64,000 nt of DNA from assembly GCF_036226685.1 (NCBI RefSeq), contig NZ_CP109009.1, positions 4,216,001-4,280,000 of the forward strand, in the 5' to 3' direction. Source of the stretch: Streptomyces sp. NBC_00690. GTDB taxonomy: Bacteria; Actinomycetota; Actinomycetes; Streptomycetales; Streptomycetaceae. This document shows, piece after piece, positions 26,490 through 32,386 of this stretch. The first letter of the stretch is position 1. Every line of letters begins with the position of its first letter. The notes beneath the pieces are model-generated. The model saw only the letters and a program-made list of their open reading frames with translations. It was not told where the DNA came from and ran no database searches. The translations under genes were made by a program, and so were the position numbers.

Positions 26490-26505
26490 TCGAACATTCG
26501 TACGA
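26490..26505 (+). promoter_or_regulatory. Near-consensus SOS (LexA) box
   Basis: TCGAACATTCGTACGA matches the actinobacterial LexA consensus TCGAAC-N4-GTTCGA at 11 of 12 defined positions (right half GTACGA). It ends 10 bp before the ATG of the PrimPol gene, a position where bound LexA would block transcription or a very short leader. Confidence 0.6.
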
Positions 26506-26515
26506 AAATAGAGCC

Positions 26516-27625
26516 ATGGCCACCATCGATCGGCAGACCGCCGCCCTGGCCCTCGCCCATGCCCTCTTCGCCGCCGAGCGCGGACTTCCGGTCATCCCGC
26601 TCTCGTCCAACAAGCTGCCCGCCCTGCGCTCACCGCACCGGGACGACGTCGAGCCGACGCACTGCCGCGGGGAATGCGGCCTGCCGGGACACGGAATCCA
26701 TGACGCCACCGTCGACCCGGCCGGAATCCGAGCGCTGTTCGCCGCCGCACCCTGGGCGACGGGCTACGGCATCGCCTGCGGCAGACCCCCACACCATCTG
26801 ATCGGCGTGGACCTTGATGTGAAGCCGCTGAAGCGCCGCTCGGACGCGACGCCGGCTGCGGGAACCCACCCACCGGGCGCCCCGGATTCGACCGGGCCAC
26901 CGGAGCGGGCGAGGGAACATCCGCCGACCCGCGGGCCACTGAGCACATGGGCCCCCGCCTCCGCCTCGTCGAACAGTGCGCCGAGCCGCTCCCAGAACTC
27001 CACCCGCTCGCTGGCGGCCCTGGCCGCCATGGAGGTGCTGGGCACGATGGAGACACAGGAATCCACCACCGATTCCCTTGCCGCACTCCATCACCTGGCG
27101 CTGCGCCACCTCTTCACCATCCCGGAGACGATCACGGTCCTCACTCCGAGCGGTGGCCGCCATCTCTGGTTGACCGGTCCGTCCGACGTCGTCGTACCGA
27201 ACTCGGCCAGCAGGATCGCCCCCGGCATCGACGTCCGAGGGGCCGGCGGCTATCTGGTCGGCCCCGGTTCGGTCACCGCCCAGGGCACCTATCGGCTCGC
27301 CCCCGGTACGGCCGGACTCTCCCCCGCCCCCTGCCCCACCGCACTCCTCCAGTTGATCGCACCCCCCGTACGTCCCTTGCCCACCGCACCCGCAGGGGCC
27401 CATCGACAACACGGGCGCGGACTGGTCCAGTTCGTACTCGCCGCACCCGAAGGCCAGCGCAACGCACGGCTGTTCTGGGCCGCCTGTCGGGCGTACGAGA
27501 ACGGCATCGGCAATGCCCTGGCGCCGGCGCTCACCCATGCGGCCGTCCGCACCGGTCTGACCGAACGCGAGGCGCGGGCCACCATCGCGTCCGCCGCCCG
27601 ACTCACATCGAGCCCCCGCCACTGA
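26516..27625 (+). CDS. PrimPol-domain protein (bifunctional DNA primase/polymerase type)
   Basis: A 369-residue archaeo-eukaryotic-primase-like protein. The N-terminus (ALAHALFAAERGLPVIPLS) and the metal-binding motif GVDLDVK (Asp99, Asp101) followed by TPSGGRHLWL (catalytic His) and YLVGPGS mark an intact Prim-Pol domain. An insertion of about 75 residues, rich in Pro/Ser/Ala (about 105-180), separates the acidic motif from the His motif. No helicase or other domain follows, so it is a stand-alone enzyme. A near-consensus SOS box lies immediately upstream. The gene converges on the ImuB-like/dnaE2 operon. Confidence 0.85.
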   Translation: MATIDRQTAALALAHALFAAERGLPVIPLSSNKLPALRSPHRDDVEPTHCRGECGLPGHGIHDATVDPAGIRALFAAAPWATGYGIACGRPPHHLIGVDLDVKPLKRRSDATPAAGTHPPGAPDSTGPPERAREHPPTRGPLSTWAPASASSNSAPSRSQNSTRSLAALAAMEVLGTMETQESTTDSLAALHHLALRHLFTIPETITVLTPSGGRHLWLTGPSDVVVPNSASRIAPGIDVRGAGGYLVGPGSVTAQGTYRLAPGTAGLSPAPCPTALLQLIAPPVRPLPTAPAGAHRQHGRGLVQFVLAAPEGQRNARLFWAACRAYENGIGNALAPALTHAAVRTGLTEREARATIASAARLTSSPRH

Positions 27626-27699
27626 ACGACGCCCGTGCATGGAACCGGACCTGCGCACGGGATCGGCCCTGTGCACGGACCGGGTGCCGAGGCCGTGGC

Positions 27700-31700: not shown

Positions 31701-32309
31701 TCCGGCTCCGGCTCCGGCTCCGGCTCCGGAATGACCGTGCCAGACGGCTTCCAGCCGCAGCGAAGGACCGAAGACCTCGCGCCAGGGAACGAGCAGCCGT
31801 TCGGCAAGGTCCGAACGCCCAGCAGCGAGCGCCCGCAGGGGCTCGGACACGGGCCCCAGCAGGGCGAACAGTCCCGTACCACCCCCCGCGTACTGCCTGA
31901 GCGCCTCCCAGGACACGACGGGATTGCCGGCGACGGGGTGAGCATGGGCCGCGGACGTGAGCCGACACAGCGCCGCCCACCCGACCCGGTCCTGTGCGAG
32001 CAGGGTGACGCGTAGGGGAGGCTCGGGGACATGGGCTCCACCGCGTACGGGGGTACGACGACGGGGCGAACGGTCGGGGCGCACCGGGGCCAGCGGCTCC
32101 ACGGCGAGATCGACCCCGAAGATGGGACGCACACCGTGCTCCAGCGCCGCCTTGGCAAAGCGAACCGCCCCGGTGACCGCATCCCGATCGGTCAGCGCGA
32201 GCGCCGCCATCCCACGCTCGGCAGCGCGTACCACCAGGTCACGGGGGTGCGAGGCGCCATAGCGGGTCGAGTAGCCGGACGCGACATGCAGATGGGTAAA
32301 ACCCTCCAT
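28749..32309 (-). CDS. dnaE2: Error-prone DNA polymerase III alpha-like subunit
   Basis: A 1186-residue C-family polymerase. GGGAGG precedes the ATG at 32309. The PHP domain starts FTHLHVASGYSTRYG; the catalytic aspartates are in PDIDLDVE (about residue 455) and in IKLDILGVR; an OB-fold region lies near the end. It lacks the tau-binding C-terminal extension of the replicative DnaE, as expected for DnaE2. A perfect SOS box lies 62 bp upstream. Together with the overlapping ImuB-like gene it forms a damage-induced mutagenesis cassette; no imuA is adjacent. A Gly-Ala repeat interrupts the PHP region at about residues 192-226. Confidence 0.93.
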   Translation of the reverse strand: MEGFTHLHVASGYSTRYGASHPRDLVVRAAERGMAALALTDRDAVTGAVRFAKAALEHGVRPIFGVDLAVEPLAPVRPDRSPRRRTPVRGGAHVPEPPLRVTLLAQDRVGWAALCRLTSAAHAHPVAGNPVVSWEALRQYAGGGTGLFALLGPVSEPLRALAAGRSDLAERLLVPWREVFGPSLRLEAVWHGHSGAGAGAGAGAGAGAVAGAGAGIGATAGAGTGAGSLRLAARTLGFGGRVGVPVVLANAVRYADPAQHRLADVLDSARLLRPIDRRRLDSGERWLKGPDAMRAVAERIARAAGEEGDASRLLAVTEDTAGACRLDTTADLGLKQRHFPEPGTVGAKDAVDAARVLRERCEAGLVRRGLDGDSAARTRLEEELAIISELEFDTYFLTVAQVVSDVREMGVRVAARGSGAGSMVNHVLHIATANPLDHRLLFERFMSRRRADLPDIDLDVESARRLDVYDRVIERFGRERVAITGMPETYRARHALRDTGLALGIAPAEVDRIAKSFPHIRASDITTALAELPELRQLAAEAAPYRLLFELAEGLDALPRGIAMHPCGVILTDSSLLDRLPVQPTPTGGYPMVQADKEDVEDLGMIKLDILGVRMQSAMAHATAEIERVTGRHIDLDDPRQVPLDDHFAFKLIQASDTLGMFQLESPGQMDLLSRLQPRDPQDVIADISLFRPGPVAGGMPEQYVAARHGRPVPSPHKDLEPILSDTYGVLIWHEQIIEIFHRFTGCDRAFGDLARRALGTPGRLPRVRDWFHREASARGYSSDVLTAVWKTIEGFGAYGFARAHAVAFAVPALQSAWLKAHYPAALYAGLLEHDPGMWPKRVIVADARRHGIAVLPVDINHSGADHTVEKAPDDTWGVRLSLSEVRGISGDEITRIAAARPYSSLSDFWQRARPSRPTAERLADIGAFHSVRGEMTRRDLLLQIAELHRQYRGRPLDDGQLPLRTDEPQAQGTGLPEMTSREELGAELRVLGIDVSRHLMDHHHQLLRELGATDARHLSELKAGENVLVAGVRAATQTPPIASGKRIIFVTLDDGSGMVDLAFFEDSHDDCAHTVFHSGLLLVRGTVQRRGGRSTVVGTMAWDLEALAVARRDQGPEAVYRLLGPAVAPVTGTSGARDSRGRRPRRTIEQETGASLHPWADLQPAGDLKTPDLSSLGYTSPGSAG
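31685..31726. repeat. Hexanucleotide microsatellite inside dnaE2
   Basis: Seven perfect tandem copies of CGGCTC, encoding alternating Gly-Ala on the minus strand. In-frame unit gain or loss would change linker length by two residues without frameshifting. Confidence 0.9.
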
Positions 32310-32370
32310 GCCGCACCTCCCAACCTGACCCCCTTTGCCAGTCTCGTACGAATCACCCCGAAAAGTGTCA

Positions 32371-32386
32371 TCGAACTTCTGTTCGA
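32371..32386 (-). promoter_or_regulatory. Perfect SOS (LexA) box upstream of dnaE2
   Basis: TCGAACTTCTGTTCGA is an exact match to the actinobacterial consensus TCGAAC-N4-GTTCGA, 62 bp upstream of the dnaE2 ATG. Confidence 0.88.

Follow-up and report, generated by a model that had tools for sequence, protein, structure and literature searches.

Repriming in prokaryotes is attributed to the replicative primase, and most eukaryotes have a specialist enzyme, PrimPol, a primase-polymerase of the archaeo-eukaryotic primase (AEP) superfamily proposed to restart replication past lesions (PMC8136793). Among bacterial Prim-Pol proteins, the mycobacterial Prim-PolC acts in DNA repair and is described as co-operonic with ligase C (PMC8136793), and actinobacterial Prim-Pols with the PF09250 domain are borne on actinomycete integrative and conjugative elements (AICEs), together with integration, transfer and replication genes (PMC3218068). 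LexA control of Streptomyces dnaE2-dinP is already known from the S. venezuelae LexA regulon (30.6- and 13.7-fold induction; Stratton et al. 2022, PMC9380542), as is the pairing of DnaE2 with an inactive Y-family protein, S. coelicolor DinB2 (scDinB2) being an inactive Y-family polymerase coupled with DnaE2 in a putative mutasome without the ImuB C-terminal domain (Timinskas & Venclovas 2019, PMC6511836). Here we analyse a 64-kb stretch of the 9.17-Mb genome of Streptomyces sp. NBC_00690 (positions 4216001-4280000, hereafter the window), in which a stand-alone Prim-Pol gene, referred to below as PrimPol, is preceded by a LexA-type box and converges with a dnaE2/ImuB-like operon. We consider it probable that PrimPol belongs to the LexA regulon and would reprime, or fill gaps, at stalled forks, alongside DnaE2 but not tied to it. 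The features in question are the following.

26516-27625, + strand: stand-alone Prim-Pol (AEP superfamily, PF09250), 369 aa, from Pfam and reading of the open reading frame (ORF)
26490-26505, + strand: predicted LexA-type operator of PrimPol, TCGAACATTCGTACGA, ending 10 nt before the PrimPol ATG
26481-26509, + strand: probable PrimPol promoter, from position and conservation
32371-32386, - strand: predicted LexA-type operator of the dnaE2/ImuB-like operon, TCGAACTTCTGTTCGA, whose arms are perfect, 61 bp before the likely dnaE2 ATG (32309)
28749-32309, - strand: error-prone Pol III alpha, DnaE2, of 1186 aa if read from the likely ATG 32309
27700-28752, - strand: ImuB-like inactive Y-family protein (scDinB2-like), 350 aa, from Pfam and alignment

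Set against the described systems, PrimPol shares with its eukaryotic namesake the AEP primase-polymerase type and the proposed role in restart, and differs from it in being bacterial, in carrying a LexA-type box, in having no second Pfam domain and in having a function predicted from sequence. Unlike the AICE proteins, with which it shares the PF09250 domain, it has a conserved chromosomal neighbour in addition to the box. The DnaE2 and inactive Y-family pair of the window resembles the DnaE2-scDinB2 system, in which the ImuB C-terminal domain is absent, except that PrimPol adjoins it here and lies outside the system as set out in the accessible text of that paper (PMC6511836). The likeness to the S. 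venezuelae LexA regulon lies in a common motif and in a dnaE2-2 box with a GTAC half-site (PMC9380542).

The sequence-only reading from which this work started had placed a LexA-type box at each transcription unit. Scanning the window with the motif derived from S. venezuelae by chromatin immunoprecipitation sequencing, tCGAAC-N4-GNNCGa (PMC9380542), we found TCGAAC-N4-GNNCGA at these two sites only, 26490-26505 and 32371-32386, which amounts to three strand-wise matches as against 0.29 expected, a number (at least three) reached in none of 100 shuffles. The same reading had called the dnaE2 box perfect and the PrimPol box one mismatch away, and this holds with respect to the palindromic ideal; the departing base of the PrimPol box is one that the published motif leaves unfixed, so that the box matches that motif in full. 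The box at 32371-32386 falls within the longest mechanical dnaE2 ORF, whose start is at 32435. The genome encodes its own LexA (TIGR00498, 252 bits, above the cut-off), TCGAACGTGTGTTTGG lies upstream of the lexA gene, and the lexA upstream site TCGAACGTGTGTTT resembles the S. venezuelae lexA-2 site (PMC9380542).

A survey of relatives for conservation of the box in front of PrimPol, suggested at the outset, gave a clear answer. In a scan of named genomes, for which the best 80 of 332 confirmed PrimPol loci were retained, the published motif was matched exactly near the PrimPol start codon in 70 loci, two of which (L055 and L100) have protein matches beginning inside the gene and were assigned from re-read upstream sequence. 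Nine loci carry the box with one mismatch (seven with CCGAACACTTGTCCGA, the others being L089 and L094), and the remaining one, L087, is cut by a contig end; all 79 assessable loci thus possess a box with at most one mismatch. The distance from the box to the first start codon was 10 nt in 64, 11 nt in 5 and 2 nt in 8 of the 77 named loci where a box could be paired with an in-frame start. The box was also exact in 27 of 29 further PrimPol loci of the genus (one mismatch in the other two) and in all 42 of the loci L179-L220, it being understood that our own genome and others recur between these sets.

Control genes behaved differently. Among 619 other genes of the named loci, the span used for PrimPol (-150 to +100) held a single exact match (in L069), and the 60 bp upstream held none, with two sites at up to one mismatch; these controls are mechanical ORFs of at least 450 bases with high third-position GC, whose starts may be wrong. 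A narrower control, limited to the 60 bp before the longest-ORF start, gave one match in 635 genes, which proved to be the L042 PrimPol; that control also retained four further PrimPol loci with a match start elsewhere than at 8001. Homologues other than the orthologues fared likewise: searches around the gene start gave no site within one mismatch in the 7 second copies and distant homologues L269-L275, in the 7 homologues assessed among L228-L236 (two more have no N-terminal match), or in the 4 homologues of genus g18, and no LexA-type box was found in the stretch scanned for any of six other Prim-Pol-type genes of our own genome. Those of g18, a third genus (L237-L240), show good similarity to PrimPol and resemble second copies of other genomes; they may form a separate, perhaps mobile, lineage.

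The box was kept in all 34 PrimPol orthologues of g11, another genus of this family, which we take to be probably Kitasatospora (genomes matching at 1e-40). Nine of these boxes are exact, and the other 25 have only the outermost T changed and possess the classical GTTCGA right half, while the promoters are mostly unlike those of Streptomyces and the ATG stands 17 nt from the box in 21 of the 34. The survival of the operator in these changed surroundings is the strongest single argument for selection acting on the predicted site. On the strength of conservation and the control genes we reject a chance origin of the PrimPol box. Because the box is kept near the start in two genera, and paralogues and neighbouring genes are without it, PrimPol is very probably under LexA-type control, as predicted.

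The position of the box fits such control. Before the PrimPol ATG, TTCCCT (26481-26486) can be read as a -35 element and GAAAAT (26504-26509) as a -10 element, separated by a 17-bp spacer into which most of the box falls, and the ATG lies at the expected transcription start point; this probable promoter would be leaderless, with the operator in its spacer. Neither a promoter nor a terminator emerged from a generic consensus scan (sigma-70 for promoters) of 26300-32700. When 125 unique upstream sequences are counted column by column, the -35 and -10 elements are conserved while the central positions of the N4 spacer vary freely, although the 138 sequences from which these derive were chosen for a box with up to one mismatch or a pattern match, so that conservation of the arms is partly a matter of selection and the locus counts given above are the ones to rely on.

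In almost every Streptomyces copy the right half of the PrimPol box is GTACGA instead of the perfect GTTCGA, again in partly selected sequences, as might be expected if the palindrome were the operator of a dimeric regulator other than LexA. We hold this to be highly improbable. Reading 30 dnaE2 loci, our own genome included, we found TCGAACN4GTACGA 50-53 bp upstream of the gene in 7 and its mirror, TCGTACN4GTTCGA, in 5 others; the S. venezuelae dnaE2-2 site TCGAACGTCCGTAC, which is validated as LexA-bound and among the tighter LexA sites by surface plasmon resonance (PMC9380542), has a right half identical to that of the PrimPol box; and the classical right half is present in the 25 altered boxes of g11. 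The presence of the asymmetric variant before dnaE2 as well (12 of 30 loci) supports LexA-type control of PrimPol. Some site with up to two mismatches to TCGAACN4GTTCGA lies within 200 bp of dnaE2 in 29 of the 30 loci, a figure to which chance may partly contribute, and L166 has none.

The protein itself (ATG 26516, stop codon 27623-27625) belongs to PF09250 with 108.6 bits (cut-off 22.8; E 5.5e-31), and the Pfam scan found neither a helicase nor any second domain. AEP enzymes are marked by motif I (DxD), motif II (with a His) and motif III (an Asp). All three are intact in PrimPol, as DLD (residues 99-101), GGRH (H216) and D239, and D99, D101, H216 and D239 are invariant in an alignment of 24 diverse orthologues, as are H41, C50, C54 and H59, which could be zinc ligands. 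Given these invariant catalytic and Cys/His residues, PrimPol should be active as an enzyme. No relative was found in the PDB by sequence search up to E 1. Directly after motif I, PrimPol has an insertion of ~80 residues (about 104-182; about 26825-27061), whose length varies among relatives; of 106 orthologues aligned, 83 have a length of just 280-309 aa.

The following picture emerges as a proposal. LexA would keep PrimPol silent in undamaged cells, a LexA dimer on the box between -35 and -10 blocking RNA polymerase at the leaderless promoter. Upon damage, RecA-stimulated cleavage of LexA would release PrimPol together with recA, lexA and dnaE2-scDinB2; PrimPol would then synthesise short primers past lesions in single-stranded templates, or else elongate ends and close short gaps, and the gaps that remain would be finished by DnaE2 or by recombination. 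From sequence we infer LexA binding, induction, primase activity and fork restart. As repriming in prokaryotes is attributed to the replicative primase (PMC8136793), a LexA-type box on a stand-alone Prim-Pol suggests that a specialised enzyme for repriming or gap filling is made upon damage. In its most specific form, that of a LexA-inducible repriming pathway through a chromosomal PrimPol in Streptomyces and a second genus, with its gaps closed by the DnaE2 mutasome and by recombination, we put the idea forward only tentatively.

Alternatively, PrimPol might be LexA-controlled and act as a polymerase, in gap filling or lesion bypass in the manner of the mycobacterial Prim-PolC or in patching the ends of linear chromosomes, instead of repriming. 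Translesion polymerases have a role at Streptomyces telomeres, and the lack of a helicase or other Pfam domain would suit a polymerase function. Prim-Pols are able both to prime and to polymerise, and Prim-PolC takes part in excision repair (PMC8136793). On the other hand, the invariant Cys/His set resembles, in our reading, the zinc motifs of priming enzymes, and a Pfam scan of 12 window proteins found no ligase or Ku domain. We regard a polymerase role to the exclusion of repriming as possible, if rather doubtful.

Several observations weigh against a LexA-regulon PrimPol acting at stalled forks. As to the boxes, a looser pattern with up to three mismatches gave 14 matches in the window as against 8.2 expected, a count reached by 8 of 100 shuffles; the genome has 716 sites within one mismatch of CGAAC-N4-GTTCG (161 for a reversed-pattern control); a site with no more than one mismatch turned up for 15 of the 619 control genes in the -150 to +100 span, near-matches alone being weak evidence; and the second copy L272, the closest among the box-less homologues, has ACGAACCGCCGTTCTA 117 bp upstream, with two mismatches. 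Loose matches being this common, conservation and position are the decisive evidence for the boxes. As to the gene, the main text of the genome-wide LexA map of S. venezuelae, in which respect that regulon differs from the one proposed here, does not contain the word "primase" (PMC9380542), and 25 of 101 genomes of the genus have no PrimPol match at E 1e-25, which makes it dispensable for some species. As to function, a Thermus Ppol mutant was without damage sensitivity (PMC7693054), and given the review view of prokaryotic repriming (PMC8136793) a bacterial need for PrimPol is not obvious.

If the proposal of damage-induced repriming is true, it departs from the notion that DnaG alone carries out bacterial repriming and provides a bacterial counterpart of eukaryotic PrimPol in genetically tractable antibiotic producers, with a possible bearing on mutagenesis and genome instability in Streptomyces. 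The SOS regulon of these well-studied organisms may contain an overlooked replication enzyme. Judged by titles and the opening of abstracts, no paper found in the open-licence PMC literature describes a Streptomyces PrimPol under LexA control, and PMC8151990 has Prim-Pol in its reference list only.

PrimPol was matched at 1e-25 or better in 76 of the 101 genus genomes, a few of which may hold paralogues or fragments (G010 and G086 at 53-54% identity; pieces in G041, G081 and G098). Within a family sample, 62 of 150 genomes matched at 1e-40, belonging to 3 of 17 genera, and a class sample gave 15 of 197 at 1e-25, 14 of them from the same genus. A protein search, in which 8000 candidates were scored, yielded relatives that, among the best 120 of 1950 matches, are mostly named bifunctional DNA primase/polymerase of Streptomyces. 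PrimPol is apparently a long-kept chromosomal gene of Streptomyces and of g11. This bears on a further explanation, namely that PrimPol is a domesticated AICE replication Prim-Pol now used against incoming DNA, as Thermus Ppol is. Mobile elements are often under SOS control. AICEs commonly carry PF09250 proteins (PMC3218068), and the Thermus Ppol mutant was transformed 100- to 1000-fold better (PMC7693054). We nevertheless think such an origin unlikely, since all 69 long named loci (longer than 15 kb) have a SigE-family sigma gene upstream of PrimPol, on the opposite strand in 68, PADLOC gave no match, and no integrase domain was found among the 12 window proteins scanned.

Turning to the neighbouring operon, dnaE2 and the ImuB-like gene overlap as ATGA and are therefore likely a single operon, and the convergence of PrimPol (+) on this operon (32309-27700, -) stands as first described, ORFs and Pfam leaving 74 bp between the PrimPol and ImuB-like stop codons. 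The label "ImuB-like" calls for a qualification. An inactive Y-family protein is paired with DnaE2: above the Pfam cut-offs it has just the thumb and C-terminal (IMS_C) domains, and when it is aligned with 29 relatives LRIHYHL stands at the first acidic motif and AVDCDIS at the DE motif, so that, by our own reading against the DinB motifs, it is without the DinB catalytic residues, in agreement with the inactivity stated for S. coelicolor DinB2 (PMC6511836). With inactivity read in this way from the alignment, the locus has one hallmark of the ImuA-ImuB-DnaE2 mutasome, DnaE2 and an inactive Y-family protein in one likely operon. The protein is not a classical ImuB and fits instead the scDinB2-like type known from Streptomyces. 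It ends (350 aa) soon after IMS_C (205-309), leaving little space for the ImuB C-terminal domain, for which no dedicated search was made and which is reported missing in S. coelicolor (PMC6511836). Inside dnaE2, TCGAACTCCAGTTCGG at 31132-31147 holds a complete CGAAC-N4-GTTCG core, and the site recurs in L287 at 7496; since a LexA site within the coding sequence is reported for dnaE2 of S. venezuelae (PMC9380542), this may be a second, putative operator. The DnaE2 of this strain also contains a Gly-Ala repeat (GAGAGAGA..., about 31640-31735), at which relatives do not align, many matches ending near query residue 199 and restarting near 222.

The sequence-only reading had gone further and proposed a module under shared control, naming in advance a lack of conserved co-localisation in relatives as evidence against it. 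That lack is what we observed. A 1.6-kb DNA query across the PrimPol/ImuB-like junction, run against 295 congeners, matched through in two (G000, our own genome, and G581) among the matches listed, all other listed matches covering one side only (adjacent split matches were not looked for); no dnaE2 or Y-family gene was found within the fetched flanks of PrimPol in any of the 80 named loci (69 of them long); and PrimPol and dnaE2 lie 1.86-4.84 Mb apart in every one of the 32 other genomes where they share a contig (pairs assigned by hand). On these results we reject a PrimPol/ImuB/DnaE2 module defined by position. The shared-control idea survives as far as the conserved LexA-type box on PrimPol goes and fails as to a positional unit, the genes never lying closer than 1.86 Mb in those 32 genomes; joint action of PrimPol and DnaE2 at forks, which had also been suggested, may still be conjectured.

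A true SOS module, in which PrimPol, the inactive Y-family protein and DnaE2 would form one complex reflected by their adjacency, has in its favour that both convergent units carry a box with so little between their stop codons, and that G581 repeats the gene order with both boxes present. We judge it very unlikely in view of the rarity of the junction and of further evidence: across the 101 genomes PrimPol (E 1e-25) showed no significant association with dnaE2 (counts of 73, 3, 22 and 3; Fisher p 0.16) or with the Y-family gene (67, 9, 22 and 3; Fisher p 1.0); G002 and G024, both drafts, possess PrimPol but gave no match to dnaE2 (at 1e-20) or to the ImuB-like gene (at 1e-60); and the stretch from PrimPol to a DegP-like gene varies in length between 248 and 7733 bp among the long loci holding both (38 of 69). 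The adjacency in this strain is a local peculiarity that need carry no functional message.

The surroundings contain a tRNA gene at the far side of the operon.

32811-32898, - strand: tRNA-Ser(UGA)

This tRNA directly follows PrimPol in L030 and L056, follows dnaE2 in the window and in L287, and was not found in the L069 and L288 stretches. Most simply, the dnaE2/ImuB-like operon would have relocated into a slot of variable length beside tRNA-Ser.

Other features of the window are of lesser weight. A tRNA-Trp called by ARAGORN at 26373-26459 (-), in a repeat-rich stretch upstream of PrimPol, had no Rfam match and is probably false. A second Prim-Pol-type protein lies at 39117-39851 (-) (PF09250, 75.3 bits) and has seemingly lost the DxD of motif I; the genome holds four more short proteins like it, together with one that has motif I, at 5.93 Mb. 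Those with a degenerate motif I may be regulators or remnants. Finally, a small protein of 101 aa with a signal-like start and no Pfam family (25851-26156, -) adjoins PrimPol, and a homologue of it is present upstream of PrimPol in 52 of the 69 long named loci.

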